NCBI RefSeq assembly: GCF_029846255.1 | Contig: NZ_JARVWQ010000002.1 | Location: 372,001-436,000 of the forward strand | Length of the DNA: 64,000 nucleotides | From: Amnibacterium sp. CER49 | GTDB taxonomy: Bacteria; Actinomycetota; Actinomycetes; Actinomycetales; Microbacteriaceae | Reading direction: 5' to 3' | Shown here: piece after piece, positions 3,228 through 63,364 of the stretch | How positions within the stretch are numbered: position 1 is the stretch's first letter | How the letters are laid out: each line of letters starts with the position of its first letter | Notes under the pieces: model-generated | What the model saw: only the letters and a program-made list of their open reading frames with translations | Database searches by the model: none | What the model was told of the DNA's origin: nothing | Position numbers and translations under genes: made by a program

Positions 3228-4355
3228 TCACACCGCGGTGGCCTCGGTCGTCTGCCGGGCGATCTCGAGCTCCTCGTTGGTCGGCACCACCAGCACGGCG
3301 ACCGGCGCCCCGTCGGGGGAGATGCGGCGGGCCTCCTTCGAGGACACCTCGTTGCGGTCCGGGTCGACCACGAGCCCGAGGTGCTCGAGGCCGGCGAGGG
3401 TGCGTCGGCGCAGCAGCGAGTTGTTCTCACCGACCCCGGCGGTGAAGACGAGCGCGTCGAGGCCGCCGAGGTGCGCGAGGTAGGCGCCGATGTAGCGCCG
3501 GATGCGGTGCCGGTACACGGCGAGCGCCGCCTCGGCCCGCTCGTCGCCCTCCGCGGCGGCCGCCTGCACGTCGCGCATGTCGCCGGAGCCGGTGAGGCCC
3601 TTCAGCCCGCTGTCGCGGTTCAGCATGGTCTCGAGCTCCTCGAACCCGAGGCCCGCCTGCCGGTGCAGGTGGAAGAGCGCGGCGGGGTCGAGGTCGCCGG
3701 AGCGGGTGCCCATGACGAGCCCCTCGAGGGGCGTCATGCCCATCGAGGTCTCGATCGAGCGGCCGCCTTCGACGGCGCAGGCGGAGGCGCCGTTGCCGAG
3801 GTGCAGCACGATGATCCTGGAGCGCTCGAGCGGGATCCGGAGGAACTCGGCCGCAGCCCGCGACACGAAGCGGTGCGAGGTGCCGTGGAAGCCGTAGCGC
3901 CGCACCCGGTACCGCTCGGCGAGGTCGGCGTCGATCGCGTAGGTGGCCGCGGCCGCCGGGATCGTGCGGTGGAACGCGGTGTCGAACACGGCGACGTGCG
4001 GCACGTCCGGCAGCACGGCGCGGGCGGCGCGGATGCCCTGCAGGTTCGCGGGGTTGTGCAGCGGCGCCAGCGCGGAGAGCTCCTCGATGGCCTGCTCGAC
4101 GCCGTCGTCGATGACGGCGGGGCCGTCGAAGCGGTCACCGCCGTGCACGACGCGGTGCCCGCAGGCATCGGGCCGTGGACCGCGCTCGATCCGGTCGAGC
4201 GCGGACCGCACGGCGGCCTCGTGGTCGGGGACGCCGCTGCCGGGCTCACCGATGCGCTCGATCGTGCCGGAGGTGTGCACCGCGCCGGTGCCGGGGTCGA
4301 CGAGCTGGTACTTGAGGCTCGACGAGCCGGCGTTCAGCACGAAGACCGCGGTCAT
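3228..4355 (-). CDS. ackA: Acetate kinase
   Basis: Converts acetyl phosphate plus ADP to acetate plus ATP, the last step of the Pta-AckA overflow and fermentation route in the cytoplasm. The 375 residues carry the family signatures: NAGSSSLKYQL at the N-terminus, VVHGGDRF, the phosphate-binding HLGNGASACAVEGG in the middle, and GVGENNSLLR near the end. It is slightly shorter than the usual 395-400 residues but complete. The ATG overlaps the pta stop by 4 nt (ATGA), giving a pta-ackA operon. Confidence 0.96.
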   Translation of the reverse strand: MTAVFVLNAGSSSLKYQLVDPGTGAVHTSGTIERIGEPGSGVPDHEAAVRSALDRIERGPRPDACGHRVVHGGDRFDGPAVIDDGVEQAIEELSALAPLHNPANLQGIRAARAVLPDVPHVAVFDTAFHRTIPAAAATYAIDADLAERYRVRRYGFHGTSHRFVSRAAAEFLRIPLERSRIIVLHLGNGASACAVEGGRSIETSMGMTPLEGLVMGTRSGDLDPAALFHLHRQAGLGFEELETMLNRDSGLKGLTGSGDMRDVQAAAAEGDERAEAALAVYRHRIRRYIGAYLAHLGGLDALVFTAGVGENNSLLRRRTLAGLEHLGLVVDPDRNEVSSKEARRISPDGAPVAVLVVPTNEELEIARQTTEATAV

Positions 4356-6472
4356 CGCAGCGCCTCCGCCCGCGCGGGCACCGGGTCCGGGGCGCCCTGC
4401 GCCTGGATCGCGGTGATCGCGATCGTGTTCACGATGTCGCGCACGAGCGCCCCTCTCGAGAGGTCGTTGATCGGTTTGTTGAGGCCCTGCAGGACGGGGC
4501 CGATCGCGAGCGCGTTCGACGAGCGCTGCACCGCCTTGTACGTGTTGTTGCCCGTGTTGAGATCGGGGAACACGAAGACCGTCGCCCGGCCGGCGACGGG
4601 GGAGCCCGGCATCTTCGTGCGCGCGACGTCGGGATCGGCGGCGGCGTCGTACTGGATCGGGCCCTCGACGAGCAGCTCGGGCGCCCGTTCGCGCACGAGC
4701 GCGGTCGCGGCGCGCACCTTCTCGACGTCGGCGCCGCTGCCCGACGTGCCCGTCGAGTACGAGAGCATCGCCACCCGCGGGTCGATGCCGAAGCGCTCGG
4801 CGGTCGCGGCGGCGGAGATGGCGACGTCGGCGAGCTGGTCGCTCGTCGGGTCGGGCAGCACGGCGCAGTCGCCGTAGACGAGCACCCGGTCGGCGAGCGC
4901 CATGAGGAACACGCTCGACACGACCGAGACGCCGGGCGCCGTGCGGATCAGCTCGAAGGCGGGCCGGATCGTGTGCGCGGTGGTGTGCCGCGCACCGGAC
5001 ACCATGCCGTCGGCGAGGCCCTCGTGCACGAGCAGGGTGCCGAAGTAGGACACGTCGGTGACGGTGTCGCGCGCCAGCTCGAGCGAGACGCCGCGGTGCG
5101 CGCGCTCCCGCGCGTACACCTCCGCGAACCGCTTGCGGAGCGGCTCGTCGAAGGGGTTCACGACGGCGGCGTGGCCGAGGTCGACGCCGAGGCCGATCGC
5201 GCGGGCGCGCACGGCGACCTCCTGGCCGAGGATCGTGAGGTCGGCGATGCCCCGCGAGAGCACGATGCCCGCGGCCTCGAGCACGCGGTCGTCGTCGCCC
5301 TCGGGCAGCACGATGCGCATCCGCCGCGACCGGGCCCGCGCGAGCAGCCCGTACTCGAACATGAGCGGCGTCACGACGTTCGGCACGTGCAGGTCGAGCG
5401 CTGCGAGCAGCCGGTCGACGTCGACGTGCTGCTCGAAGAGCGCGACGGCCTCGGCCGCCTTCTGCGGGCTCTCCGCGGCGAGCCGGCCCCGCGCCCCGGA
5501 CACCGCGGTCACGGTCTCGAACGTGCCGAGCCCGGTGCGGGCGAGCGGCAGGGTGAGCCCGAGGCCGTCGACGAGTCGCCGCACGTTCGGCGTGAGGTCG
5601 AGGCCGCCGGTGAGCAGGACGCCCGTGATCGACGGGAAGGTGGCGGAGGCGTGCGCGAGCAGCACCCCGACCAACGTGTCGGCGCGGTCGCCCGGCATGA
5701 CGACGAGGGCACCGGGCACGAGGCGGGGGAGCAGGTTCTCGAGCGTCATCGCCGCGACGACGATGCCGTTCACGTTGCGCTCGAGCAGCGCCGGATCGCC
5801 CGCGACGGCCTCGGCGCCGGCCGCGTCGAGCACCGTCGCGAGGGTCGGCGCGACGAGCTGCGGGCTCTCCGGCACCGTGGACACCGGGGTGCCCTCCGGC
5901 AGCAGCGCCGAGACGGCCGCCGCGACCTCCGCGAGGCGCTGCGGGTCGGCGCGGTTCACGACCACGCCGGCGAGCTCGGCGTGCTGGCCGCGGAACTCGC
6001 CGAGCGCGATCTCGGTCACCTGCGCGACCTCGCCCGGCGTCCGGGCCCGGGAACCGCCGGCGGCGCGGCCCGAGAGCACGAGCACGACCGCCGCGCCGAG
6101 GTTCGCGGCGACGCGGGCGTTGAAGCTGAGCTCCGTGGGCGTGCCGACGTCGGTGTAGTCGCTGCCGAGCACGAGCACCGCGTCGCACCCCTCGGCGACG
6201 GCCCGGAACCGCTCGACGATCGTGCCGAGCGCCGCCTCCGGGTCGTGGTGCACGGCCTCGTAGGTGGTGCCGACGGCCGCCGCCGCGGGCAGGTCCGCGG
6301 TCGTGTGCTCGAGCAGCAGGTCGAGCACGTAGTCGCCGTCCGCCGAGCGGCTGACGGGCCGGAAGACGCCGACGCGCCCGAGCCGCCGGGCGAGCGCCTC
6401 GAGCAGGCCGAGGGCGATCGCGGACTTGCCGGTGCTGCCCTCGGCCGAGGCGAGGTAGACGGTCGCGACCAT
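4352..6472 (-). CDS. pta: Phosphate acetyltransferase, long form
   Basis: Interconverts acetyl-CoA and acetyl phosphate. The 706 residues show the three-part long form. An N-terminal P-loop (ASAEGSTGKSAIALG, residues about 8-22) belongs to a BioD/CobQ-like domain, a central DRTGG-type domain follows, and the catalytic PTA_PTB domain takes up about the last 330 residues, with RIVLPEGDD and SYSTGTSGSGADVEKVR. The long form is usual in actinobacteria, and its N-terminal region is linked to allosteric control in other species. It lies 3 nt after the upstream MRJP-like gene and overlaps ackA, so all three are probably one transcript. Confidence 0.95.
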   Translation of the reverse strand: MVATVYLASAEGSTGKSAIALGLLEALARRLGRVGVFRPVSRSADGDYVLDLLLEHTTADLPAAAAVGTTYEAVHHDPEAALGTIVERFRAVAEGCDAVLVLGSDYTDVGTPTELSFNARVAANLGAAVVLVLSGRAAGGSRARTPGEVAQVTEIALGEFRGQHAELAGVVVNRADPQRLAEVAAAVSALLPEGTPVSTVPESPQLVAPTLATVLDAAGAEAVAGDPALLERNVNGIVVAAMTLENLLPRLVPGALVVMPGDRADTLVGVLLAHASATFPSITGVLLTGGLDLTPNVRRLVDGLGLTLPLARTGLGTFETVTAVSGARGRLAAESPQKAAEAVALFEQHVDVDRLLAALDLHVPNVVTPLMFEYGLLARARSRRMRIVLPEGDDDRVLEAAGIVLSRGIADLTILGQEVAVRARAIGLGVDLGHAAVVNPFDEPLRKRFAEVYARERAHRGVSLELARDTVTDVSYFGTLLVHEGLADGMVSGARHTTAHTIRPAFELIRTAPGVSVVSSVFLMALADRVLVYGDCAVLPDPTSDQLADVAISAAATAERFGIDPRVAMLSYSTGTSGSGADVEKVRAATALVRERAPELLVEGPIQYDAAADPDVARTKMPGSPVAGRATVFVFPDLNTGNNTYKAVQRSSNALAIGPVLQGLNKPINDLSRGALVRDIVNTIAITAIQAQGAPDPVPARAEALR

Positions 6473-8793: not shown

Positions 8794-8809
8794 CCCTCGC
8801 GGGGGAGCG

Positions 8810-12494: not shown

Positions 12495-14045
12495 ATGGGC
12501 GGGCGCAGCATCCTGGTCGCGATCGCCGTCGCGGTGGTCGTCGTGCTCGGCATCGGCGTCGCGGTGGCCGTGACCGCAGGCCGCGCGCTCGCGCCCGCCA
12601 CGACGGCATCGGCAGCGACGAGCGCCGCACCCGAGTCGTCCTGGCCGACGCCGAAGGCGGTGTCCTGGCGCGCCTGCCGGGCCGCCGACCTGCGCGACGC
12701 GCAGTGCGCCTCGGTCGCGGTGCCGCTCGACTGGTCGCGGCCCCGCGGTCGGACGATCACGCTGGCGATCGCGCGGGTGCGGCACACCGCCGCGCCCTAT
12801 GCCGGCGTCATGCTCGCGAACCCGGGCGGCCCGGGGGAGAGCGGGCTCTCGCTCGCGACCCTCGGCTCCCACGTGCCGGGCGGCGTCGGCGAGCGCTACG
12901 ACTGGGTCGGCTTCGACCCTCGGGGCGTCGGGGACTCCCGGCCGCGCCTCACGTGCCAGGCCGACTACGCGAACGGGCCGCGGCCGCGCTACGCGCCACC
13001 GACCGACAGCACGGTGTCGACCTGGCTCGCCCGCGCGAGGAGGTACGCGTCGTCCTGCGCGAAGAACGGCCCGATCCTGCAGCACATGACCACGGCCGAC
13101 AGCGCCCGCGACATCGAGTTCCTGCGGCTCGCGCTGCGCGCGCCGAAGGTGAGCTACTACGGCTACTCCTACGGCACGTACCTGGGGCAGGTGTACGCGA
13201 CGCTGTTCCCGTCCCACGTCGCCCGCATGGTGCTCGACTCGAACGTCGACCCGCGCCGCGTCTGGTACGGCTCGAACCTCGACCAGGACGCCGCCTTCCA
13301 GACGACCATGGAGGCGTTCTTCCGCTGGGTGGCGCAGCACGACGCCGTCTACGGCCTCGGGACGACCCCCCGCGCGGTGGAGCAGGCCTACGCGTCGCTC
13401 GCCGGGCGGCTGTCCCGCAGCCCGGCCCACGGCGTCCTCGGGCCGGACGAGCTCGCCGACACGGTGCTCGAGGCCGGCTACGAGCAGTCGTGGTGGCAGG
13501 AGATCGCCGGCGGCCTCGCCTCGGCGCTGCGGCAGGGCGACGCCTCGCGGCTCGTCGCGGACTGGCGCTCGATCAACAGTCCCGACGACGACAACGGCTA
13601 TGCCGTCTACCTCGCGGTCGACTGCACCGACGCCCCGTGGCCGGCCGACTTCGCCACCTGGCGGCGCGACAGCAGCCGTGTCGACGCCGCCGCGAGCTTC
13701 GAGACCTGGCCGAACACCTGGTTCAACGCCCCCTGCCTCACCTGGCCGGCGAAGGCGAAGCAGCCCGTGCGGGTCGACGGGTCGAAGGCCCCCGCCGCGC
13801 TGCTCATCGACGAGACGCTCGACGCCGCCACGCCCTACCGGGGGAGCCTCGAGGTGCGCTCGCGCTTCCCCAAGGCGCGGCTGCTCGCCGAGCCGGGCGG
13901 CACCTCGCACGCCGACTCGCTGTCGGGCAACGACTGCGTCGACGGCGCCATCGCCCGCTACCTCGCGTCCGGCGCGCTGCCCGCGCGGAAGGCGGGACGC
14001 ACCGCGGATGCGACGTGCCCGCCGCTCCCGGTGCCGTCACCGTGA
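12495..14045 (+). CDS. Secreted alpha/beta hydrolase, TAP-like (tripeptidyl aminopeptidase family)
   Basis: A 516-residue exported hydrolase. Residues 5-28 form a signal or membrane anchor followed by an Ala/Thr/Ser-rich linker. LANPGGPGESG forms the oxyanion region, and YGYSYGTYLGQ is the nucleophile elbow with the catalytic Ser. The C-terminal TAP-like region has LLIDETLDAATPYRGS (Asp) and GGTSHADSL (His). Relatives of the Streptomyces Tap/SlpD group cleave N-terminal peptides outside the cell. Paired Cys residues in the mature part also fit secretion. Confidence 0.86.
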   Translation: MGGRSILVAIAVAVVVVLGIGVAVAVTAGRALAPATTASAATSAAPESSWPTPKAVSWRACRAADLRDAQCASVAVPLDWSRPRGRTITLAIARVRHTAAPYAGVMLANPGGPGESGLSLATLGSHVPGGVGERYDWVGFDPRGVGDSRPRLTCQADYANGPRPRYAPPTDSTVSTWLARARRYASSCAKNGPILQHMTTADSARDIEFLRLALRAPKVSYYGYSYGTYLGQVYATLFPSHVARMVLDSNVDPRRVWYGSNLDQDAAFQTTMEAFFRWVAQHDAVYGLGTTPRAVEQAYASLAGRLSRSPAHGVLGPDELADTVLEAGYEQSWWQEIAGGLASALRQGDASRLVADWRSINSPDDDNGYAVYLAVDCTDAPWPADFATWRRDSSRVDAAASFETWPNTWFNAPCLTWPAKAKQPVRVDGSKAPAALLIDETLDAATPYRGSLEVRSRFPKARLLAEPGGTSHADSLSGNDCVDGAIARYLASGALPARKAGRTADATCPPLPVPSP

Positions 14046-16012: not shown

Positions 16013-17188
16013 TCAGCCGATGACGCGCTCCCCGCCGCGCCACACCTGCGCGACGAGCGGCACGCCCGGCCGGTAGGCGAGGTGCACGTGGGAGGGTGCG
16101 TCGAGCACCACGAGATCGGCCCTCGCGCCCGGGCCGAGCGCGCCGACGTCGTCGCGGCGCAGCGCTCGCGCCCCTCCGGCGGTCGCGGCCCAGACCGCCT
16201 CGTCGGGCGTCATGCGCATCTCGCGCACGGCGACGGTGATGCAGAACGGCAGGTTCGTGGTGAAGCTCGAGCCCGGGTTGCAGTCGGAGGCGAGGGCGAC
16301 GGTGACGCCGGCGTCGAGCAGGCGCCGGGCGTCCGGGTACGGCGAGCGCGTCGAGAACTCGGCGCCCGGGAGGAGCGTCGCGACCGTCCGGCTGCCGGCG
16401 AGCGCTGCCACGTCCTCGTCCGTGACGTGGGTCACGTGATCGGCCGAGGCGGCGTCCAGCTCGACGGCGAGCCGGACGCCCGGTCCGGCCTCGAGCTGGT
16501 TCGCGTGGAGGCGGGGGAGCAGCCCCCGCGCGATGCCCGCGGTCAGGATCGCGCGGGCCTGGTCGCCGTCGAAGGCGCCGCGGTCGCAGAAGACGTCGAT
16601 CCACCTCGCGTGCGGCGCGCAGGCGTCGAGCATCGCGCCCGTGACGAGGTCGACGTAGTCGTCGGCGCGGCCCGCGTACTCGGACGGCACGACATGCGCG
16701 CCGAGGAACGTGCGCTCGTCGGTGACGAGCCCCGCGACCTCGAGGCTCGTGCGCTCGGCGTCGACGGTCAGGCCGTATCCCGACTTCGACTCGATCGTCG
16801 TGGTGCCCGCTCGCAGCGCCTCGGCGGCGAGCGCTGCGGTGCGGGCCTCGAGGGTCTCTCGCGACGCCGCGCGGGTCGCCTCGACCGTCGTCCGGATGCC
16901 GCCCGCGGAGTACGGCAGCCCGGACATCCGCGCGGCGAACTCGGCCGTGCGGTCGCCCGCGAAGACGAGGTGGGCGTGGCTGTCGACGAAGCCCGGCAGG
17001 ACGGCCCGGCCGCCCAGGTCGACGCGTGTGTCGGCGGCGGCGCGGCCGAGCGCGGCGCGTGGGCCCGCGAAGACGATGCGGCCGTCCTCGACCACCAGCG
17101 CGGCATCATCGACGAGCCCGAGCGGCCCGCGTCCCAGCGCGGGCTCGTTCGTGACGAGGCTCCCGATGTTCTCGAGCAGCGTGCTCAC
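16013..17188 (-). CDS. hutI: Imidazolonepropionase
   Basis: Third enzyme of histidine degradation, hydrolysing imidazolone-5-propanoate to N-formimidoyl-L-glutamate. The 391-residue amidohydrolase has the metal-binding [12 protein letters not shown], substrate-region [18 protein letters not shown], and the metal Asp in [11 protein letters not shown]. The GTG at 17188 overlaps the hutF stop as GTGA. It is the last gene of the minus-strand hut operon. Confidence 0.95.
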
Positions 17189-50216: not shown

Positions 50217-50274
50217 GCTGGCTCTCCCGTCCGCTCGATCCGTTCGCGCCCGAGCTCCACACGCATTGTGCCGC

Positions 50275-51504: not shown

Positions 51505-51526
51505 CCTCCGATCCTGCCGCAGCCCG

Positions 51527-52594: not shown

Positions 52595-52751
52595 CGGAGC
52601 AGGCTGCCAGCGGGGTCCGACAGCGCCGTCCGCCACCCCCTCGTCCTCGTAGAAGCCTGGGCATCCGCTGCCCGGAGCCCCCTCGGGCACGAATCCTTGC
52701 GGATCGAGCGATTGCCTAAGAGAGTTCCCTCACGCATCCGGAAGGACCCCG

Positions 52752-54062
52752 ATGAACCCCACCCGTCGCACCGTGCTCGCCGGCGCCGGCGCCGTCTCGC
52801 TCTCCACGCTCCTCGCGAGCTGCGCGGGCTTCACCGGCCAGAGCAACCAGGGAAGCGGCAAGGGGGGCTCCGGCTCGAAGACGCTCTCCTTCACCACGTG
52901 GGGCAGCGACCAGGAGAAGACGGCCTACCAGCAGCTCATCAAGGAGTTCGAGGCGGCGAACAAGGGCGTCACCGTCAAGCTGTCGATCGTCCCCTACGAG
53001 CAGGCGTTCACGAACCTCGACGCCCAGCTGCAGGCGGGCAAGGCGCCCGACATCTTCCGCCTCGGCTACGGGCAGATCGGCGGCTACTCGGACAAGAACG
53101 TGCTGCTCGACCTCTCCCCCTACTTCAGCTCGTCGGAGGCCGACGCGTTCCAGCCGCAGTTCTGGCAGGCGGTGAAGTACCAGGGCAAGCCCTACGGGGT
53201 GCCGCAGCAGACCGACACCTCGGCGCTCGTCTACAACACGAAGATGCTGAAGGACGCGGGCATCACCTCGGTGCCCGACAGCCTCGAGAACGCCTGGAGC
53301 TTCGACGAGTTCACGCAGGTGCTCGAGAAGCTGCGCAAGAACATGGACGCGAAGCACTTCCCGTTCGCCGACAACTGGCAGCTCGCGGGCGCCTTCCGCT
53401 GGCTCACGTGGCTCTTCAGCACGGGCGGCCGCATCCTCAGCAGCGACCTGAAGTCGCCGGCGATCGTCTCGCCGCAGGGCACGAAGGCGCTCGACTACAC
53501 CCGCGACTTCTTCGCGAAGCAGTACGTGCCGCAGAACAACTCGACGAAGTCGAACACCTACGCGGACACCACCTGGCTCGCCGGCACCACCGCGATGGTC
53601 TCGGCGGGCACCTTCCTGCTGCCCGGCTTCACCGGAGCGAAGTTCGAGTGGGGCGTCACCTACCTGCCGAAGGACGTGCGCGGCGCCGACGACCTCGGCG
53701 GCAACGCCCTCGTCGCCTCGGCGGCCTCGCCGAACAAGGACCTGGCGGCGAGGTTCCTGAAGTTCATGGTCAGCGAGAAGGCGATGAGCACCATGTGCGT
53801 GACCGCCTTCGAGCAGCCGACGCTCAAGTCGCTCGTCGGCAAGGACCTCGGCTGGAAGATCCAGTCGGGCGTCATGCCGGTCTACCTCGACCAGGCGACG
53901 ACCATCACGCCCGACGACGTCGCGCAGATCTCGATCCCGCAGTTCACGAGCATCAACACGACGCTGACGAACGAGCTCGAGGCCGCGTTCCGCCAGGGCC
54001 AGAGCACCTCGAAGACGCTCTCGAACATCGCGGACGGGGTGACGAAGGCGCTGCGGTCGTGA
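52752..54062 (+). CDS. Sugar ABC transporter substrate-binding lipoprotein
   Basis: A 436-residue binding protein of the carbohydrate family 1 type. The N-terminus NPTRRTVLAGAGAVSLSTLLASC has twin arginines and a lipobox LASC, so it may be a Tat-exported lipoprotein. The mature part shows LSFTTWGSDQEKTAYQQLI, KAPDIFRLGYGQ, PYGVPQQTDTSALVYN and PNKDLAARFLKFM, typical of oligosaccharide or polyol binders. GGAAGG precedes the ATG. It leads an operon with two permeases. Confidence 0.93.
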   Translation: MNPTRRTVLAGAGAVSLSTLLASCAGFTGQSNQGSGKGGSGSKTLSFTTWGSDQEKTAYQQLIKEFEAANKGVTVKLSIVPYEQAFTNLDAQLQAGKAPDIFRLGYGQIGGYSDKNVLLDLSPYFSSSEADAFQPQFWQAVKYQGKPYGVPQQTDTSALVYNTKMLKDAGITSVPDSLENAWSFDEFTQVLEKLRKNMDAKHFPFADNWQLAGAFRWLTWLFSTGGRILSSDLKSPAIVSPQGTKALDYTRDFFAKQYVPQNNSTKSNTYADTTWLAGTTAMVSAGTFLLPGFTGAKFEWGVTYLPKDVRGADDLGGNALVASAASPNKDLAARFLKFMVSEKAMSTMCVTAFEQPTLKSLVGKDLGWKIQSGVMPVYLDQATTITPDDVAQISIPQFTSINTTLTNELEAAFRQGQSTSKTLSNIADGVTKALRS

Positions 54063-55012
54063 GCGAGTCGGCCACCGCTCCCGCGGCCGCGGGGCTGCGG
54101 GCCGCCGAGCAGGCGCCGCGCCCGCGGCCGGGCACGCGACGTGCGCGGACGAGCGAGTGGCTCGCCGGCTACTCGTTCGCGGCCCCGAACCTCGTGCTGC
54201 TCGGGGTCTTCCTGTTCTGGCCCCTGCTCGCCGCGTTCGTGCTCAGCTTCCAGCGCTTCTCGGGCTTCGGCGATCCGACCTGGCTCGGCCTCGGCAACTA
54301 CGCGTCGCTCCTCTCGGACGCCGCCTTCTGGCGGGCGCTGCTCAACACGATCGTGTTCACGACCCTCACCCTGCTCGGCAGCGTCGGCCTCGGCCTCGCC
54401 CTCGCGGTGCTGCTGAACACGTCGCTGCCCGGGCGGAGCGTGTTCCGGACGATCATCTACATCCCGATGGTCGTCTCGGGGGTCGCATCGGGCCTCATCG
54501 GCGTGCTCATGTTCGACGAGAACACCGGCGTCATCGACAAGGGGCTGAACTTCCTCGGGCTGCCGCCCGTCCCCTGGCAGAGCGACGGCGCCGCGGCGAT
54601 GGCGGCGGTCATCCTCATGACCGTGTGGGGCCGCACCGGCTTCAACATGGTCATCTACCTCGCCGGCTTGCAGGGCATCTCGCCCGATCTCCACGAGTCG
54701 GCGCAGATCGAGGGCGCGAGCGCCTGGCAGCGCTTCCGGTCGATCACCTTCCCGCTGCTCGGGCCGTCGACGTTCTTCCTGCTGATCATGAACGTCATCT
54801 ACTCGTTCCAGGTCTTCGACATCGTGTTCGTGCTGACGGGCGGCGGCCCCGGCAACGCGACCGAGATGCTCACGACCTACGCGTACCAGACCGCCTTCAC
54901 GACGCGGGCCCAGGGGTACGCCGCCGCGATCGGCATGGTGCTGCTCGTGCTGATCCTCGCCTTCACGGGCGTGCAGTGGCGCACGAACCGCACGCGGGAC
55001 CTCGCCGGATGA
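54059..55012 (+). CDS. Sugar ABC transporter permease 1 (MalF-like)
   Basis: A 317-residue inner-membrane permease with about six helices after a cytosolic N-terminal tail (residues 1-40). The EAA-loop signature is LHESAQIEGASAWQRFRSITFPLLGP (about residues 219-244), which contacts the ATPase. FVLTGGGPGNATEMLTTYAY is also typical of MalF/UgpA types. GTG at 54059 overlaps the binding-protein stop as GTGA. The transporter must share an ATPase from elsewhere, as is common in actinobacteria (MsiK type). Confidence 0.94.
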   Translation: MSESATAPAAAGLRAAEQAPRPRPGTRRARTSEWLAGYSFAAPNLVLLGVFLFWPLLAAFVLSFQRFSGFGDPTWLGLGNYASLLSDAAFWRALLNTIVFTTLTLLGSVGLGLALAVLLNTSLPGRSVFRTIIYIPMVVSGVASGLIGVLMFDENTGVIDKGLNFLGLPPVPWQSDGAAAMAAVILMTVWGRTGFNMVIYLAGLQGISPDLHESAQIEGASAWQRFRSITFPLLGPSTFFLLIMNVIYSFQVFDIVFVLTGGGPGNATEMLTTYAYQTAFTTRAQGYAAAIGMVLLVLILAFTGVQWRTNRTRDLAG

Positions 55013-55908
55013 GCGCCTCCGCCGAGGCGCGGGCCCGCCGCCCCGCCCGCGTCGCCGCCGCCCGCACGGCCACCCGAGGCAGCCGCACCCGACGGCGCCG
55101 CCGTCTGCAGGTGATCCGCTTCCTGCTCGCGACGGTCGTCTGCATCGTGATGGTGTTCCCCATCTACTGGATGGCGGTCGTCGCCCTCTCGCCCCGGAAC
55201 GAGCTGTTCACGGACCGCTTCCTGCTCTGGCCGAGCGCGCTCACCCTCGGCAACTTCGCCGACGTGTTCACCCGGTTCGACGTGCTCACCTGGCTGCAGA
55301 ACTCGGTCGTCATCACGCTGTTCGTCACCGTGCTCAGCACCTTCGCGAACCTCCTCGCCGGCTACGCGTTCGCGAAGCTGCGGTTCCTCGGCAAGAACGC
55401 CCTGTTCTTCGCGGCGCTCTCGACGCTCGTGCTGCCGGTGCAGGTGACGATGGTCGCCCAGTTCCGCCTCATCACCCAGCTCGGGCTCTACGGCACCTAC
55501 TGGGCGGTGATCCTGCCGTCCGCCGCCACGGCGACAGGCATCTTCCTCGCGCGGCAGTTCATCCTCGGCATCCCCGACGAGCTCGTCGAGGCCGCGAAGC
55601 TCGACGGCGCCGGCCAGTTCCGCATCTTCCGGTCGATCGTGCTGCCGCTCTGCCGACCGCTCATCGCCGTGCTCGTCGTGCTCACCGCGATGGCGACGTG
55701 GAACGACTTCGCGTGGCCCCTCATCGCGCTCAAGCAGAACTACCTCTTCACGCTGCCGATCGGACTGCTCTTCCTGCAGGGGCAGAACACCCCGCAGTTC
55801 GAGGACGTCATGGCACTGTCGCTCGTCGCGGTGATCCCGATGATCGTGCTGTTCCTCGTCTTCCAGCGCTACTTCGTGCAGGGGGTCGCCCGCTCCGGCA
55901 TCCGCTGA
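55009..55908 (+). CDS. Sugar ABC transporter permease 2 (MalG-like)
   Basis: A 299-residue permease with an Arg-rich cytosolic N-terminus (residues 1-35) and six helices. Features are FPIYWMAVVALSPRNELF, NLLAGYAFAKLRFLGKN, and the EAA loop DELVEAAKLDGAGQFRIFRSIVLPLC. FLQGQNTPQFEDVMALSLVAVIP matches MalG-type C-termini. ATG at 55009 overlaps the first permease by 4 nt (ATGA). No nearby catabolic gene identifies the sugar. Confidence 0.94.
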   Translation: MSASAEARARRPARVAAARTATRGSRTRRRRRLQVIRFLLATVVCIVMVFPIYWMAVVALSPRNELFTDRFLLWPSALTLGNFADVFTRFDVLTWLQNSVVITLFVTVLSTFANLLAGYAFAKLRFLGKNALFFAALSTLVLPVQVTMVAQFRLITQLGLYGTYWAVILPSAATATGIFLARQFILGIPDELVEAAKLDGAGQFRIFRSIVLPLCRPLIAVLVVLTAMATWNDFAWPLIALKQNYLFTLPIGLLFLQGQNTPQFEDVMALSLVAVIPMIVLFLVFQRYFVQGVARSGIR

Positions 55909-56019
55909 CCTCCGTTCCTCCGCAGCCCGAGGATCCCCCGAAAGGTACCTGGGCCCCGGGTGGATCCCGGCTGCGCGACTGGCAGCATGGCTCCGTACCC
56001 ACTGGGGGAAGGAGCACGC

Positions 56020-56595
56020 ATGAAGGGCAGACTCGCTTTCGTCGCCGGACTGGCCACGGGTTACGTCGTCGGATCCCGCGCCGGCCGGCAGGCCTACGAA
56101 TCGCTGCGCCAGCGCGTCCAGGACGCGGCCGCGAACCCGCAGGTGCGGAACGTGCTCGGCAAGGCCAAGGACCTGGCCGAGCAGAAGGCCCCGCAGGTCT
56201 CGGGCGCCGTGGAGGGCGTCGCGAGCACGGTCGCGCACGTCGCCGGCGCGAGCACGTCGCAGGGCTCCTCGAGCACGTCGAGCACGTCGACCGAGGACGA
56301 CTCCTCGTCCGCGTCCGACTCGTCCTCGACCGACTCGGGCTCGGGTTCGGGCCGCGGCTCCCGCTCCCGCAGCAAGGGCAGCGGCAGCGCCGCGGCGAGC
56401 ACCGGCGCGGCCGCCTCGGTCGCGACCGGCACCCCGACGCCGGAGAGCGCGCAGGAGGCCGCCGAGGTGTTCGAGCAGCAGGGGCTGCTCTCCGAGCAGT
56501 CGGAGCAGTCCGAGCAGCTCGAGACCGTGCAGGGCGCGCAGGACGCGGCCGCCGAGGGCACCGACGAGTCGACCTCGCCGACCGCCACCGCCTGA
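56020..56595 (+). CDS. YtxH-like low-complexity protein
   Basis: A 191-residue protein. Residues 1-20 (MKGRLAFVAGLATGYVVGSR) form a short hydrophobic helix like YtxH/YoaJ-type membrane-tethered proteins. A coiled helix follows (RQAYESLRQRVQDAAANPQVRN to about 75), then a long Ser/Gly/Thr-rich and acidic low-complexity tail with EQSEQSEQ repeats. Function unknown; similar actinobacterial genes commonly sit next to envelope genes. GAAGGAG precedes the ATG. The next gene starts 1 nt after its stop. Confidence 0.75.
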   Translation: MKGRLAFVAGLATGYVVGSRAGRQAYESLRQRVQDAAANPQVRNVLGKAKDLAEQKAPQVSGAVEGVASTVAHVAGASTSQGSSSTSSTSTEDDSSSASDSSSTDSGSGSGRGSRSRSKGSGSAAASTGAAASVATGTPTPESAQEAAEVFEQQGLLSEQSEQSEQLETVQGAQDAAAEGTDESTSPTATA

Positions 56596-56596
56596 G

Positions 56597-57874
56597 ATGA
56601 CCGACACGAAGCAGCCGCGCACCGAGGGCGGGGCGCGCACCCTGGTGGGCGCCTCCGCCGTCTCGGCGGGCGTCGTCGCCCTCGTCGCGTCGACGGTCGG
56701 GCTCGCCCGCCGCACCGGCGCGATCCCCGAGACGCCCGAGCAGCGGCGCCGCGAGACCGCGCACCGACGGCACGACGAGCGGCTGCGCGAAGCGAAGGGA
56801 AAGGCGCCGTCGAGGACGGCGAGGATGACCATGTCACCACGGAACGCTCCCCCGCCCGACGACCCGAGCAAGCCCGAGGGTCCGGAGGACATGCACAAGC
56901 CGTCGCTGATGTACTCGCTGAAGCGCACGCTCTCCGAGTTCGGCTCCGACCAGTGCACCGACATCGCGGCCGCACTCGTCTACTACGCGGTGCTCGCGCT
57001 CGGACCGGCGATCGTCGCGATCGTGTCGATCCTCGGCCTGCTCTCCCCGAGCACGATCTCGAGCCTGTCGAACCAGATCCTGAAGCCGGCGCTCGCCGGC
57101 TCGCCGAGCACCTACACGCTGATCGACGGCCTGCTCACGAACGCGAGCAAGGCCCCCGGCGCCGGCATCGGCCTCGTCGTCGGCATCGTCGGCGCCATCT
57201 GGTCCGCATCGGGCTACGTGGGGGCGTTCGGGCGGGCGATGAACCGCATCTACGGCATCCCCGAGGGCCGCCCCGTCTGGAAGCTGCGGCCCACGCAGCT
57301 CGCGGTCACGCTCGCGGTCCTCGTGCTCGTCGTGCTCGGTGCGCTGATCCTCGTCTCGACCGGGCCGGTCGTCGAGCACATCGCCGGGCGCATCGGCATC
57401 GGCGGCCCGGCCTTCCTCGTGTTCTCGATCGTCAAGTGGCCGGTGCTCGTGCTCATCGCCGTCGCCTGCGTCGCGATCCTCTACTACTTCTCGCCGAACA
57501 TCCGGCAGCCGAAGTTCAAGTGGACGAGCATGGGCTCGGTCATCGCCCTGCTCGTCTGGGCGCTCGCGACCGTCGCGTTCGGGTTGTACCTGTCCTTCTC
57601 GGGTGGCGGCAGCTACGCGAAGTCGTACGGGCCCATCGCCGGCGTCGTGATCTTCCTGCTCTGGCTCTGGATCACGAACCTCGCGCTGCTCTTCGGCGCC
57701 GAGTTCGACGCCGAGATCGAGCGCGGGCGGGAGCTGCAGGCGGGCATGCCGGCCGCGCAGCAGATCCAGCTGCCGATGCGCGACGAGCGCGGTGCCGACA
57801 AGAAGGCCGCCAAGCAGAAGAAGCTCGTCGACCAGGCGCGGCGGCTGCAGAAGACGGACGGCCGCGAGGACTAG
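56597..57874 (+). CDS. YihY/virulence factor BrkB family membrane protein
   Basis: A 425-residue polytopic protein. A basic cytosolic N-terminus (1-110) precedes the YihY domain with about six helices, beginning at DIAAALVYYAVLALGPAIVAIVS and including GAIWSASGYVGAFGRAMNRIYG, YYFSPNIRQPKFKW, GPIAGVVIFLLWLWITNLALLFGAEFDAE. A Lys-rich tail ends the protein. Once called RNase BN by mistake; the actual role is unknown (transport suggested). It is 1 nt from the YtxH-like gene and probably co-expressed. Confidence 0.9.
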   Translation: MTDTKQPRTEGGARTLVGASAVSAGVVALVASTVGLARRTGAIPETPEQRRRETAHRRHDERLREAKGKAPSRTARMTMSPRNAPPPDDPSKPEGPEDMHKPSLMYSLKRTLSEFGSDQCTDIAAALVYYAVLALGPAIVAIVSILGLLSPSTISSLSNQILKPALAGSPSTYTLIDGLLTNASKAPGAGIGLVVGIVGAIWSASGYVGAFGRAMNRIYGIPEGRPVWKLRPTQLAVTLAVLVLVVLGALILVSTGPVVEHIAGRIGIGGPAFLVFSIVKWPVLVLIAVACVAILYYFSPNIRQPKFKWTSMGSVIALLVWALATVAFGLYLSFSGGGSYAKSYGPIAGVVIFLLWLWITNLALLFGAEFDAEIERGRELQAGMPAAQQIQLPMRDERGADKKAAKQKKLVDQARRLQKTDGRED

Positions 57875-57967
57875 TTCATACTCGCTCGGGAATGTGCCGC
57901 GTCCGCGGTCTCACCGCGAGCGGTATGGGGTGAGTCGCGGGCTCGCCGCGGTGGTGCGCAGCAGCGA

Positions 57968-58144
57968 TCAGCGCTGCAGCTGCATCGCCGGGGCGAGCAT
58001 CGCGGGGCTCGGCCGCGCCGCCTCGTTCCTGTCGCGGCGCTCCGCCGCGCCACGCACGAGCGGGCCCACGAGCAGCGCGAGCGCCAGCGACGCCACGCAC
58101 CAGGCGGTGACACCGGCCAGGACCCAGACGAGCGTGAAGAGCAT
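57968..58144 (-). CDS. Small membrane protein, 58 aa
   Basis: Reads MLFTLVWVLAGVTAWCVAS, continuing as one or two tight hydrophobic segments to about residue 31. A charged stretch (RGAAERRDRNEAAR) and a short tail follow. No family recognised. The ATG at 58144 is supported by CACGAT ending 6 nt upstream (leaderless type). The 126 nt between it and dhaM contain no other gene that I can see. Confidence 0.55.
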   Translation of the reverse strand: MLFTLVWVLAGVTAWCVASLALALLVGPLVRGAAERRDRNEAARPSPAMLAPAMQLQR

Positions 58145-58271
58145 GTCCGAATCGTGACATCCGGGCGGGGCTCGATCCGGTAACGGGGTCGGCGCGCCGC
58201 TCGGTCCACGCGGACGGTCCGGGGCGCTCCCGCCCACGGCGGTCCGGCCGTGCGACCGGGAGGCGACCGGT

Positions 58272-58949
58272 TCAGACCTCCGGACGGCCCGTCGAGAGCA
58301 GGGTCTGCACCGCGTCGACGGCGGTGGCGGCATCGCTCCCCCGCGCGGTGATGCGCACCTCCGCGCCCTGCCGCAGCCCCAGCCCGAGGATCGCGAGCAG
58401 GCTCCGGGCGTCGACGCCGTTCACCCGCACCGCGGCGTCGAAGGTGGCGGCGAGCCGCACGAGCTCGGCGGCGGGGCGGGCGTGGAGGCCGTCGGGATCG
58501 GCGAGCTCGGCGACGGCCTCCGCGCTGTCGTCGGGCGCCCCGCTCCCCGGACCCGCGAGGTTCGGCTCCTCCGGATCCGTGCCGCGGGCGGCGGCACGAG
58601 CGACCGCATCGACATCGGCCCCGGCCTGCGCCGCCACCGCGGCCGCGACGCCGCCCTCGACGAGCGGCCCGTCGACCACGCGCAGCGCGACGACGGGCGG
58701 ATCGATGAGGTCGGCGACCGCCTCGGCGGTCATGATCGCCGAGCCGAGGTCGCCGAGCACGACGACGCCGTCGCCCGAGTCGACCTGGCGGACCGCCGCC
58801 TCGATGCGCTCGTAGCTCGTGCCGATGCGGCCCTCCTCGGTGCCACCGGCGGCGGCGAGGGCGGCGTCCGGCGCCATCTGGCGGGCGAGCTCGACGAGCC
58901 CGTCGGCGATCGCGGCGCTGTGCGACACGAAGACGAGCCCGACGCCCAC
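58272..58949 (-). CDS. dhaM: PTS-dependent dihydroxyacetone kinase, phosphotransferase subunit DhaM
   Basis: A 225-residue fusion of an EIIA(Man)-type domain (residues 1-125, phospho-His10 in VFVSHSAAIADG) and an HPr domain (about 145-225, His156 in DGLHARPAAELV, with the Ser region SLLAILGLG). It passes phosphate from PEP via enzyme I to the ADP bound in DhaL. GTG at 58949 is 1 nt from the DhaL stop. In this operon the acceptor may be erythrulose rather than dihydroxyacetone. Confidence 0.92.
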   Translation of the reverse strand: MGVGLVFVSHSAAIADGLVELARQMAPDAALAAAGGTEEGRIGTSYERIEAAVRQVDSGDGVVVLGDLGSAIMTAEAVADLIDPPVVALRVVDGPLVEGGVAAAVAAQAGADVDAVARAAARGTDPEEPNLAGPGSGAPDDSAEAVAELADPDGLHARPAAELVRLAATFDAAVRVNGVDARSLLAILGLGLRQGAEVRITARGSDAATAVDAVQTLLSTGRPEV

Positions 58950-58950
58950 G

Positions 58951-59589
58951 TCAGCGGCTCCCGGCGGCCTCGGCCGCGGCGGCGAGCAGCAGCGCGCTCG
59001 AAGCGGCTCCCGGATCGCGATGCCCGACGGCGCGTTCGCCGAGGTAGCTCGCGCGTCCCTTGCGGGCCACGAGCGGCTCGGTGGCAGCGGCGCCCTCCCC
59101 CGCGGCGCGGGCCGCCTCCCGCAGCACCTCCGCGGGCTCGGCGCCGCCGGCCGCCGCCGCCGCCGCCGCGTCGACCGCCGGCGACCACGCGTCGACCATC
59201 GTCTTGTCGCCCGGCTCGGCCCGGCCCCGGAGCACGATCCCGTCGCGCGCGGCGGCGAGCAGCGCCGCGACCGCGGGACCGTCGAGCGTGTCCGCATCGC
59301 CGGCCGCCTCGGCCGCCTTGAGGAACGCGGTGCCGTACAGCGGACCCGCGGCGCCGCCGACAGTCGAGATCAGCGTGGTCGCGACGAGCCGGAGGACGGC
59401 GCCGGGGGTGCCCGCTGCCCCGTCCTGCACCTTCGCGAGCGCGGCGGTGAAGCCGCGGTCGAGGTTCTCCCCGTGGTCGCCGTCGCCGATGTCGCGGTCG
59501 AGCGCGCCGAGCTCGGCGCGGTGCTCGGCCACCGACGCCGCCGCGAGGCGCACCCAGTCGCGCGCCCAGTCCGCCGTCAGACCCGCCAT
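58951..59589 (-). CDS. dhaL: Dihydroxyacetone kinase subunit DhaL
   Basis: A 212-residue ADP-binding subunit with the all-helical DhaL fold. The nucleotide/Mg site is seen in LDRDIGDGDHGENLDRGF (the Asp triplet), STVGGAAGPLYGTAF, and RAEPGDKTMVDAWSP. GRASYLGERAVGHRDPGAASSA is the family C-terminus. It phosphorylates the substrate covalently held by DhaK. The ATG at 59589 is 13 nt after dhaK. Confidence 0.95.
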   Translation of the reverse strand: MAGLTADWARDWVRLAAASVAEHRAELGALDRDIGDGDHGENLDRGFTAALAKVQDGAAGTPGAVLRLVATTLISTVGGAAGPLYGTAFLKAAEAAGDADTLDGPAVAALLAAARDGIVLRGRAEPGDKTMVDAWSPAVDAAAAAAAGGAEPAEVLREAARAAGEGAAATEPLVARKGRASYLGERAVGHRDPGAASSALLLAAAAEAAGSR

Positions 59590-59602
59590 GGCCCGGCTCC
59601 TC

Positions 59603-60604
<1,002 letters not shown>

Positions 60605-60684
60605 CGTCGACGCCTCCTTCCCCGTCCGCACCCTAGCGAGCCAGGCGGAGCGAGCGCAGCGGGGCGGAACGGGGAGGCGGCCCC

Positions 60685-61710
60685 TCAGCGCTGCGGGTGC
60701 ACCACGCTCTTCAAGGTGCCGGGGCGCCGGGTCGAGGCGAGCGCGTCCTCGACCTCCGCGAGCCCGAAGTGGCCCGTGACCATGCGGTCGAGGTCGACCG
60801 CGCCGGACTCGACGAGGCCGATCGCCGTCGGCCAGGTGTTCACGTAGCGGAAGATCCCGGTGACGACGAGCTCGCGGTTCTGGATCACGGCGACCGGCAG
60901 CGGCATCTCGGGCGCCCCCATGCCGACGAGCACGACGCTGCCCGCGGGACGCACGGCGCGGACGCCCGCCGCGACCGCCGGCGCCGCGCCCGACGCGTCG
61001 ACGAAGGCGTCGACGGCGAGGTCGTCCGTGACCTCCCCGGGGGCGAGGGCACGGGTGGCGCCGAAGGTGAGCGCCTGCTCGCGCCGGGCCTCGTCGACGT
61101 CGGAGACGAGCACCTCAGCGGCGCCGTAGGCGCGGGCCACCTGCGCGACCGCGACGCCGATGGGGCCGGCACCCGCGATGAGCAGGCGCGACCCGACCGT
61201 GATGCCCGCCTTCCGGATGGTCGCCACCGCCACGGAGAGCGGCTCGAGCAGCGCGGCGGCCTCGTCGCTCATCGAGTCCGGCACGGCCCAGGCGAAGTGC
61301 GACTGGATCGCGGCGTACTCGGCGAACGCGCCGTCGGTGCCGGGGACGGCGTAGAAGCGCATGGCCGGATCGAGGTTGTAGTGCCCCGCGAGCGTCTCCG
61401 CGGAGAGCGGCTCCGGCCGCTGCGGCTCGATCGAGACGCGCTCGCCGATGCGCTCCCCCGGCACGTCGCGGCCGACGGCGACGATCACGCCGCCCGACTC
61501 GTGCCCGAGCACGAGCGGCTCCGTGACGGTCCACTCGCCGAGCGCGCCCTCGTGCCAGAAGTGCACGTCGGACCCGCAGACCCCGACCGCGGTGATCCTG
61601 ACGAGCACCTGGTCGGGCTCGAGCGCCGGCACGGGCCGCTCCTCGAGCTCCAGATGCTGCGCGCCGTGCAGCACGCTCGCCCGCATGGTCGTCGGAACCC
61701 CGTCGGTCAT
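60685..61710 (-). CDS. Medium-chain zinc alcohol/polyol dehydrogenase (candidate tetritol dehydrogenase)
   Basis: A 341-residue sorbitol-dehydrogenase-like enzyme. The catalytic zinc ligands are Cys45 (GVCGSDVHFW) and His70-Glu71 (LGHESGG), and the Rossmann motif is GAGPIGVAVAQVARA. The structural-zinc lobe has lost its four cysteines (EPQRPEPLSAETLAGHYNLD), keeping only YNL. In context it probably oxidises a sugar alcohol such as erythritol or threitol to erythrulose. ATG at 61710 overlaps the DeoR stop by 4 nt. Confidence 0.9.
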   Translation of the reverse strand: MTDGVPTTMRASVLHGAQHLELEERPVPALEPDQVLVRITAVGVCGSDVHFWHEGALGEWTVTEPLVLGHESGGVIVAVGRDVPGERIGERVSIEPQRPEPLSAETLAGHYNLDPAMRFYAVPGTDGAFAEYAAIQSHFAWAVPDSMSDEAAALLEPLSVAVATIRKAGITVGSRLLIAGAGPIGVAVAQVARAYGAAEVLVSDVDEARREQALTFGATRALAPGEVTDDLAVDAFVDASGAAPAVAAGVRAVRPAGSVVLVGMGAPEMPLPVAVIQNRELVVTGIFRYVNTWPTAIGLVESGAVDLDRMVTGHFGLAEVEDALASTRRPGTLKSVVHPQR

Positions 61711-62579
61711 CCCTCGTCCTCCTCCTCGATCTGCGGCTCGCCGCCCGGCTGGCCCGCCACGACGACCTCGACGCCCGAACGGCGCAGCCGGTCCACGGTG
61801 GGCTCCGGGGTCGCCTCGTCGACGACGACGACGTCGAACTCGGTGAGCGGCACGAGCGCGTGGAGCGCCCGCCGCTCGAACTTCGTGTGGTCGGCGAGCA
61901 GGATGCGCTTGCCCGCCGCCTCGAGCATCGCCCGCTTCACGTCGACGGTCTCGAGCGCCTGGTGGAACACGACGTCGTCGGTGATGGCGGCCGTCGACAT
62001 GACGAGGACGTCGGCGCGGAGCGATGCGATCATGCGGGTCGTCATCGACCCCATGAAGGCGCTGCACCAGTTGTAGTAGGTCCCACCGAGCCCGAGCAGG
62101 GTCACCCCGCGGGCGACGCGCAGCTCGTTCAGCAGCGGCAGGGCGTTCGTGATGACGGTGAGCGGCGCCTTCGCCGACAGGTGCCGCGCCATGTGCTGGA
62201 CGGTCGTCGAATCGTCGAGCAGCACCGCCTGCCCCGGCTCGAGGTGCTCCATCGCCGCGGCGGCGAGCGCCTCCTTCTCCCGCCGCTGCCGGGCGGCGCG
62301 GTAGACGTCGCTCGACTCGACGAGCAGCGACGAGGTGGCGGTGGCGATGCCGCGGCTCTTGCGCAGCAGCCCGCGCGCCTCGAGCTCGTCGAGGTCGCGG
62401 TGCACGGTCATGACGCTGATGTCGAAGCGGTCGGCGAGCTGCTCGATGCGGATCGTGCCGGCCGCCATCACCGCCTCGGTGATCGCGCGCTGCCGCGCCT
62501 GCTGCCGACCCTGCCGCGTCTCGGCGGCGGGCCCCTGGCCCTGCTCCTCCCCCGCGCCCTCGAGGTCCGTCGCGCTCAT
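61707..62579 (-). CDS. DeoR/GlpR family regulator of sugar operon
   Basis: A 290-residue repressor-type protein. The N-terminal winged helix is IRIEQLADRFDISVMTVHRDLDELEARGLLRKSRG (about residues 43-77). A DeoR sensor domain follows, with LDDSTTVQHMARHL, TVITNALPLLNEL, LLADHTKFERRALHALVPL and VVDEATPEP. This domain binds phosphorylated sugars. It lies inside the operon between the isomerase and dehydrogenase genes, overlapping both by 4 nt, so it is likely an autogenous local regulator. Confidence 0.93.
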   Translation of the reverse strand: MSATDLEGAGEEQGQGPAAETRQGRQQARQRAITEAVMAAGTIRIEQLADRFDISVMTVHRDLDELEARGLLRKSRGIATATSSLLVESSDVYRAARQRREKEALAAAAMEHLEPGQAVLLDDSTTVQHMARHLSAKAPLTVITNALPLLNELRVARGVTLLGLGGTYYNWCSAFMGSMTTRMIASLRADVLVMSTAAITDDVVFHQALETVDVKRAMLEAAGKRILLADHTKFERRALHALVPLTEFDVVVVDEATPEPTVDRLRRSGVEVVVAGQPGGEPQIEEEDEG

Positions 62580-63364
62580 CGCAGCGCCATCGCCTCGTCG
62601 AGCACGGCGGCGACCGCCTCGGGGTCGTGCGCGAAGCGGCCGAGGAACAGGCCGTCCACCGCCCCGTCGAGCCGGCCGAGCAGGCCGGGGCCCGCGCTGC
62701 CGCCGTAGATCACGGACGTCGGCGGCAGGTGCGGCCGGGTCGCGAGGAACGCGCGGATGCCGCTCGTCACCTCCGCGACGTGCTCGGGCGCGGCCGACGA
62801 GTCGGCCCCGATGGCCCACTCGGGCTCGTAGGCGATGAGGAGCCCGGCGCCCTCGGGCGCGTCCGGCAGCCCGTCGAGCGCCGCGGCGAGCTGGGCGGTC
62901 ACGTCCGCGATCGCGCCGGTCGCGTGCTGCCGGGTCCGCTCCCCCGCGCAGAGCACGGGGACGAGGTCGTTGCGGAGCGCAGCGGCGAGCTTGCGGCGGA
63001 TCGTGTCGTCGGTCTCGCCGAAGAACCGCCGCCGCTCGGCGTGCCCGATCTCGACGAGCTCGCACCCGACGGCGCGGAGGTCGGCGCCGCTGACGGCGCC
63101 CGTGTAGGCGCCGCGGTCCTCCCAGAAGAGGTCCTGCGCGCCGACGCGCACCGGCGTGCCCGCAGTCGCCTCGAGCACGCCGGCGAGGGCGGGCAGCGAG
63201 GGCAGGACGAAGACCCCCGCCGTGCCGCTCGCGGTCGCCTCGTGGTCGCGGACGATCTCGCCGATGCGCCGCGCCCAGGCGACGCTGCGCGCCGGGTCGA
63301 GGTACAGCTTCAGGCTGACCCCGATCAGGGGCCGGGGCAGCCCCGGCCCGGTGCGATCGGTCAC
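62576..63364 (-). CDS. Triose-phosphate-isomerase-like enzyme (candidate L-erythrulose 1-phosphate isomerase)
   Basis: A 262-residue TIM-barrel isomerase with all three catalytic residues, Lys19 (VSLKLYL), His108 (EIGHAERRRFFGE) and Glu180 (AYEPEWAIGAD). The canonical NWK and HSER are changed to SLK and HAER, as in divergent paralogues such as EryH/LerI. Neighbours are an RpiB-like isomerase and erythrulose-type kinases, which supports L-erythrulose 1-phosphate to D-erythrulose 4-phosphate conversion. GTG start; overlaps the DeoR gene by 4 nt. Confidence 0.88.
   Translation of the reverse strand: MTDRTGPGLPRPLIGVSLKLYLDPARSVAWARRIGEIVRDHEATASGTAGVFVLPSLPALAGVLEATAGTPVRVGAQDLFWEDRGAYTGAVSGADLRAVGCELVEIGHAERRRFFGETDDTIRRKLAAALRNDLVPVLCAGERTRQHATGAIADVTAQLAAALDGLPDAPEGAGLLIAYEPEWAIGADSSAAPEHVAEVTSGIRAFLATRPHLPPTSVIYGGSAGPGLLGRLDGAVDGLFLGRFAHDPEAVAAVLDEAMALR

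Follow-up and report, generated by a model that had tools for sequence, protein, structure and literature searches.

Among the closest described counterparts of the element treated here are the FtsK-orienting polar sequences (KOPS) of Escherichia coli and Vibrio cholerae, in which the word GGGNAGGG is read by the gamma domain of the translocase FtsK (PMC5357621, PMC9764985); S766, Q769 and N777 are given as KOPS residues of this domain (PMC9764985). Other words are described for other lineages, namely the SpoIIIE recognition sequence (SRS) GAGAAGGG of Bacillus subtilis (PMC9764985) and an A-rich heptamer as the KOPS of Lactococcus lactis (PMC5357621). For actinobacteria, a 2026 paper on mycobacterial FtsK mentions G-rich KOPS in general terms, and five Corynebacterium genome papers (PMC2830990, PMC3164646, PMC3022926, PMC3219685, PMC3350403) plot the octamers G(A/T/C)GGGGGA and (T/C)GGGGGAG as architecture imparting sequences (AIMS), termed actinobacterial in one of the five. 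In Corynebacterium aurimucosum, both octamer groups stand at 856:61 in favour of the leading strand, in a paper that cites Hendrickson and Lawrence 2006 for AIMS (PMC2830990). The present analysis concerns the heptamer GGGGGAG in Amnibacterium sp. CER49, starting from a 64-kb stretch of its genome (hereafter the window, meaning the whole stretch analysed) that contains dif. Judging from sequence comparison, this word, usually in the form CGGGGGAG, is very probably a polar signal of the KOPS type belonging to the class Actinomycetes.

Since the word has been printed as an actinobacterial AIMS, the polar phenomenon itself is known and the novelty is modest. Full-text searches found no paper naming GGGGGAG as an actinobacterial KOPS, and a printed prediction may exist. 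What is new here is the step from AIMS to FtsK signal for the class, together with the control for composition, the comparison of gamma domains and the chromosome on which no dif was detected. Two traits of the genus are also added, namely an inverted dif-like twin beside dif and additional gamma proteins lacking a motor.

Polarity of GGGGGAG in the window and the genome

The source genome comprises two contigs (3.36 Mb), and the window covers positions 372001–436000 of the second (C2). By exact count it holds 39 copies of GGGGGAG, 24 on the plus strand (3315–48384) and 15 on the minus strand (49866–62939), with none against this pattern. The initial annotation, counting by eye, had placed about 24 plus-strand copies at 3.3–48.4 kb, which is the exact number, with no opposing copy. 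It had also placed about 14 CTCCCCC at 49.87–62.95 kb, one fewer than the 15 present, and the absence of GGGGGAG that it reported there is borne out. The reversal exactly at dif likewise stands, as dif lies between the two blocks (39:0). All copies are given below by position in the window, together with dif, located by a 28-mer match, and an inverted dif-like twin.

3315–3321, plus strand, GGGGGAG copy pointing to dif
4598–4604, plus strand, GGGGGAG copy
5725–5731, plus strand, GGGGGAG copy
8801–8807, plus strand, GGGGGAG copy
12833–12839, plus strand, GGGGGAG copy
13840–13846, plus strand, GGGGGAG copy
16513–16519, plus strand, GGGGGAG copy
18753–18759, plus strand, GGGGGAG copy
23531–23537, plus strand, GGGGGAG copy
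26612–26618, plus strand, GGGGGAG copy
26987–26993, plus strand, GGGGGAG copy
28259–28265, plus strand, GGGGGAG copy
30237–30243, plus strand, GGGGGAG copy
31755–31761, plus strand, GGGGGAG copy
32327–32333, plus strand, GGGGGAG copy
35600–35606, plus strand, GGGGGAG copy
36390–36396, plus strand, GGGGGAG copy
39061–39067, plus strand, GGGGGAG copy
39624–39630, plus strand, GGGGGAG copy
43682–43688, plus strand, GGGGGAG copy
46725–46731, plus strand, GGGGGAG copy
46827–46833, plus strand, GGGGGAG copy
47595–47601, plus strand, GGGGGAG copy
48384–48390, plus strand, GGGGGAG copy, last before dif
49193–49220, minus strand, inverted dif-like twin with dif's arms and the centre GGGCTC, which lies 48 bp from dif's centre on the XerC side
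49241–49268, plus strand, dif: XerC arm GCAGCCGATAA, centre TGCACA, XerD arm TTATGTCAGCG
49866–49872, minus strand, GGGGGAG copy, first after dif
50453–50459, minus strand, GGGGGAG copy
50680–50686, minus strand, GGGGGAG copy
50989–50995, minus strand, GGGGGAG copy
51220–51226, minus strand, GGGGGAG copy
51311–51317, minus strand, GGGGGAG copy
51319–51325, minus strand, GGGGGAG copy
51605–51611, minus strand, GGGGGAG copy
53114–53120, minus strand, GGGGGAG copy
56847–56853, minus strand, GGGGGAG copy
58336–58342, minus strand, GGGGGAG copy
59095–59101, minus strand, GGGGGAG copy
61453–61459, minus strand, GGGGGAG copy
62547–62553, minus strand, GGGGGAG copy
62939–62945, minus strand, GGGGGAG copy

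With the switch fixed at dif and orientation left random, the chance of 39 in 39 is 2^-39. Dinucleotide shuffles of the window yield 16.6 ± 4.5 copies (maximum 25), and 39 was attained in none of 100. The last plus-strand copy lies about 0.86 kb from dif and the first minus-strand copy 0.61 kb. Per 2 kb, GC skew never exceeds ±0.1 and crosses zero several times, and the backward word GAGGGGG leans the same way, more weakly (6:1).

The whole genome carries 989 copies (313 forward, 676 reverse; 214 and 278 for the backward word). Oriented counts were made in a sample for which 60 stretches of 20 kb were taken, with 1,203,961 oriented bases or about one third of the genome. They omit the origin region (L028, mixed, with three forward and seven reverse copies), 20 bp on each side of dif, and two stretches taken as the gamma and ftsK genes (L053 and L057), in which the expected orientation is reverse and forward and reverse copies number 1:5 and 0:4; L057 shares 4 kb with L046, and L053 overlaps nothing, so that its omission was unnecessary. 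The initial annotation had proposed counting both orientations by replichore and plotting density against distance from dif, and both results agree with its expectation. In the sample, 346 copies point towards dif and 10 away (97% polar), and the usual form CGGGGGAG reaches 248:1; ranked by skew z, they come first among 7681 7-mer pairs and 25032 8-mer pairs, respectively. Besides the change of polarity at dif there is a second one at 1.38–1.44 Mb of contig 1, adjoining dnaA (C1:1379718–1380203). Density per 10 kb is highest within 15 kb of dif (8.3) and falls to 4.5 (15–50 kb), 3.6 (50–150 kb), 3.2 (150–300 kb) and 1.0–2.8 beyond, while the backward word stays at 0.8–2.2 with no trend and is oriented 111:61.

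As a side observation on contig order, the polarity fits C2 joined to C1 either way round. The arms measure about 1.07 and 2.29 Mb as deposited and about 1.56 and 1.80 Mb, a more usual balance, with C2 inverted. The density gradient is identical for both joins to 300 kb and similar beyond; the one departure, with C2 inverted, is the outermost bin, a small one of 60 kb with 1.0 per 10 kb.

Several controls bear on the cause of this bias. Markov composition is rejected, as models of orders 1–5 predict 80–227 copies on the leading strand and 19–162 on the lagging strand, against 346 and 10 observed. Of the 21 single-letter variants of GGGGGAG, 18 exceed 60 copies. Among these, 12 are nearly even (leading fraction 0.42–0.53), and the other six lean (0.63–0.83, compared with 0.97 for GGGGGAG itself), the leakiest being AGGGGAG (52:11), GGGGGAT (55:13) and GGGGGAC (98:37). 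With genes predicted by a simple rule of open reading frame and GC position, the word is oriented 163:0 in leading-strand genes, 106:5 in lagging-strand genes and 77:5 elsewhere, at equal density in the two gene classes (3.14 and 3.19 per 10 kb). Given this polarity and equal density in both classes, coding direction is rejected as the cause, as the initial annotation had held. Of the 163 sense copies in leading-strand genes, 130 share one frame, G|GGG|GAG, and codon choice thus affects where copies can lie. GC skew is likewise rejected, being small in the window and strongly reversed in two relatives described below (G068 and G092). Mononucleotide skew and codon usage, named in the initial annotation as possible full causes of the bias, do not account for it by the skew and gene-direction controls.

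Relatives, the FtsK gamma domain and the proposed role

Comparison with related genomes, also proposed at the outset, was made on the 20-kb dif flanks of 40 relatives, 20 from the same family or order and 20 mostly from the same class. The set is non-random, its members having been picked for contig room around dif (20 of 30, 18 of 31 and 2 of 8 dif-bearing genomes), and three (G050, G056 and G094) have less than 20 kb on one side. Near dif, 729 copies point towards the site and 9 away. GGGGGAG is the top-ranked 7-mer in 16 of 20 genomes of the family and order set and in 13 of 20 of the second; 31 of the 40 have at least five copies and no exception. In the 30 exception-free relatives with copies on both sides of dif, the interval that contains the switch is 2.5 kb long at the median. 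In all, the signal is present in 37 of 40, the other three having fewer than five copies near a candidate dif. At the phylum level, the dif search gave sites in just 10 of 60 genomes, our own included; consequently, no statement is made beyond the class, apart from one result given below.

The two relatives G068 and G092 separate the word from composition. Their leading strand near dif is C-rich (GC skew -0.16 and -0.14) and GGGGGNG is oriented the wrong way (27:90 and 20:77), yet GGGGGAG remains right-way at 20:1 and 10:1. These are both examined genomes of one family (code f30; L215-L216 and L237-L238), with strongly negative leading-strand skew. In these two genomes, CCG/CACC-type words near dif are very polar, for instance CGCCGCC with 176:34 in G068.

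Two further whole chromosomes, G076 and G053, appear to be those of a mycobacterium and of a streptomycete with a linear chromosome, respectively. The 73 copies of CGGGGGAGCG in G076 form three blocks, on the minus strand to 1.433 Mb, on the plus strand at 1.656–3.932 Mb and on the minus strand again from 3.988 Mb, and the backward word occurs 8 times. Here dnaA lies at 1.420 Mb, and two copies just past it are the sole possible exceptions (71–73 of 73). G053 is a single contig of 9.17 Mb with dnaA at 4.50 Mb and no match to dif at up to one mismatch. Of the 77 places listed for CGGGGGAGCG up to 4.31 Mb, 70 are on the minus strand and 7 on the plus strand; with a whole-genome count of 81:81, the remainder is 74 plus and 11 minus, and the word mostly points from the origin towards both ends. 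That the word is polar even where no dif was detected is new here, and would mean that the direction of pumping matters even without dimer resolution. Three wrong-way copies of CGGGGGAGCG, spread over about 25 kb on a mostly polar arm (G053:C1:1130821–1156054), mark a candidate inverted or acquired segment.

The FtsK of the source genome (976 aa, at C2:774 kb) has four transmembrane segments and the alpha, motor and gamma domains, and a gamma domain occurs in 59 of 59 class genomes. A 21-residue recognition stretch of gamma is identical in 26 of 30 FtsK loci from our genome and its relatives, in 74 of 80 named loci and in 12 of 13 class-level genomes, the remaining cases differing by one or two residues. 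In an alignment with the gamma domains of E. coli and Pseudomonas aeruginosa, SIS.VQR...IGYNRAAR replaces the actinobacterial stretch; if residue spacing places them correctly, the S and Q of the KOPS residues are retained in actinobacteria and the N is replaced by A. Co-evolution of word and reader would predict such a near-invariant stretch beside an invariant word. Separately, the nearest named FtsK (L066, 65%) is found in a metagenome-assembled genome labelled Acidobacteria, followed by Microbacteriaceae; the former is probably a mislabelled actinobacterium.

As expected of a KOPS-type signal, the word is over-represented, polar towards dif on both arms and switched at dif, in a genome whose FtsK carries motor and gamma. 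The initial annotation had called it the translocase guide of this lineage. The sequence tests came out as that proposal predicts and an FtsK with gamma is encoded, but "this lineage" is too narrow, since the signal is found in most class members examined. We infer that FtsK gamma reads GGGGGAG, that loading on the word determines the direction taken and that the pattern is maintained by selection. Copies on the leading strand would be read 5' to 3' from origin to dif; the winged-helix gamma domains of septal FtsK would attach to one of them and so place the hexameric motor on the DNA with its face to dif, and septum-trapped DNA would be pumped up to the point at which FtsK reaches dif-bound XerCD. 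Selection would delete wrong-way copies, of which 10 of 356 are left in the sample, and concentrate right-way copies around dif, the region in which misdirection would cost most.

Several observations weigh against this assignment. The word is sparse near the candidate dif in G041 (3:1) and G014 (2:0) and absent from the 20-kb flanks of that in the phylum-level G106 (0:0), and in 7 of the 40 relatives, G041 included, one or two copies near dif point the wrong way. G076 gave no match to dif, so that its terminus-side switch is not tied to the site; about 89% of CGGGGGAGCG in G053 is oriented outward; and the origin-side switch of the source genome is blurred across 1.38–1.44 Mb of contig 1. As GGGNAGGG is hardly polar here, GGGGGAG is not the E. 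coli KOPS by sequence. The gamma sequence was read for 27 members of the dif-flank set of 40, and the co-occurrence of a conserved gamma with the word is a correlation only, much of gamma being conserved anyway.

Polarity alone names no reader, and the word could be an AIMS read by another terminus-directed or strand-sensitive machine, such as an SMC loader or a protein of the nucleoid or of replication. In the passages cited above, the Corynebacterium papers print it as AIMS only and use it to locate dif, and it is polar also in G053, where dif was not detected. We nevertheless regard another reader as improbable, given the switch at dif to a median of 2.5 kb in 30 genomes and the density peak over the final 15 kb, the zone of action of FtsK and Xer (PMC5357621). 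The gamma recognition stretch, near-invariant where read, points the same way.

Still less probable is a Chi-type word for a RecBCD- or AdnAB-type nuclease. In its favour, Chi words are rich in G, occur in excess and are found on the leading strand. However, such a role predicts no peak within 15 kb of dif and gives no reason for the near-complete loss of wrong-way copies, with polarity at 97% in the sample and 71–73 of 73 in G076, though about 89% in G053; E. coli Chi is about 75% polar.

The idea that the pattern arises as a side effect of GC skew, of codon choice or of a mutation bias between the replication strands deserves next to no credence. It could draw on the one frame of 130 of 163 leading-gene copies and on the lean of the backward word (111:61). 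Against it, the window shows little GC skew and G068 and G092 a strong reversal, 12 of the 18 one-letter variants are unskewed, the backward word leans little, and the effect is full in both gene directions.

If GGGGGAG is indeed the orienting signal of FtsK, one word and one near-invariant recognition stretch have been kept together across much of a class, a span that would include mycobacterium-like and streptomycete-like genomes. This would provide a clean test of how FtsK gamma reads DNA. It would also offer a composition-independent means of finding origins and dif and of checking assemblies in GC-rich genomes of low skew.

The dif twin and motorless gamma proteins

The inverted twin is found at 47–48 bp from dif in all seven examined genomes of the genus, detected by reading in six (G000–G005) and by a pattern in the seventh (G380). 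Its XerD arm TTATGTCA is identical in 7 of 7 and its XerC arm CCGATAA has zero to two changes, while spacer and flanks are not conserved across the genus. The centre of the twin is always unlike that of dif; its last base is C in the six read genomes (imposed by the pattern in G380), where dif has A. The pattern found no twin in 292 other family genomes; it is one exact form, demanding an exact dif and an exact XerD end of the twin, and it missed G003, so that variants elsewhere could escape it. Reading with up to three mismatches gave no second dif-like site within 800 bp of dif in the other 38 relatives. Dif and twin together are foldable as single-stranded DNA (z of -4.0 and -3.5), and in this they resemble the attP1/attP2 pair of CTX-type phages (PMC5357621). 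A different case is G074 (L227), where CCGATAAGATATATCATGTCA, oriented as dif is and some 841 bp away from it, forms another dif-like site, possibly the trace of an Xer-using element.

The genus is also distinguished by its gamma domains. At least three gamma matches occur in 7 of 7 of its genomes (one in G002 lies under the family cut-off), four in the source genome and three in each of the other six, and, by table count, more than one occurs in 7 of 292 other family genomes. Two short gamma-domain proteins of the source genome (G000:C2:216975–217903; L003 and L004), 752 bp apart, have no motor according to Pfam. With the GTG starts that we chose, the products would be 162 and 187 aa long, and a hydrophobic N-terminal segment is recognizable by eye; a similar frame is present in each of four other genomes. 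A further gamma domain, near FtsK's own, lies in a short reading frame at G000:C2:1191406–1191573 (L002).

Twin and motorless gamma proteins thus occur in 7 of 7 examined genus genomes and are rare or undetected in 292 other family genomes. It is conceivable, though on balance unlikely, that the genus has rewired the activation of dif by means of both. The inverted twin would make XerD arms face outward to both incoming FtsK motors; alternatively, the pair might fold on single-stranded DNA like CTX-type attP1/attP2. The motorless proteins, apparently membrane-anchored, could recognize GGGGGAG or contact XerD, and in this way locate dif or activate it with no translocation involved; that they bind either one is a conjecture. 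The combination would represent a natural variant of dif activation.

Comparison with known systems

The SRS of B. subtilis and the KOPS of L. lactis resemble the present case as lineage-specific polar words read by the gamma domain of FtsK or SpoIIIE, but they are other words. GAGAAGGG was rejected as the signal here, at 20:10 in the sample compared with 346:10 for GGGGGAG. With the KOPS of E. coli and V. cholerae, the likeness extends to a G-rich polar word on the leading strand, a switch at dif, a rise in density and a gamma-bearing FtsK. The word itself is different, and GGGNAGGG, hardly polar at 129:94 in the sample and 4:6 in the window, was rejected as a candidate. The gamma domains differ in one segment: the gamma of E. 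coli and P. aeruginosa has GYNRAAR, the N of which corresponds by residue spacing to the key KOPS residue N777 (PMC9764985), whereas actinobacterial gamma has a different 10-residue stretch.

The Corynebacterium AIMS are the same word, with the same leading-strand bias and the same use as a pointer to dif. What defines an AIMS is also found here: (T/C)GGGGGAG and G(A/T/C)GGGGGA are biased to the leading strand in the sample (296:4 and 231:28), and abundance is highest near the terminus, where the 15 kb next to dif carry 8.3 per 10 kb, against at most 3.2 beyond 150 kb. In the passages cited, the AIMS are not named as the signal of FtsK; the present work differs in that step, and in adding the dif test across 40 relatives, the controls for composition and coding, and the comparison of gamma domains.

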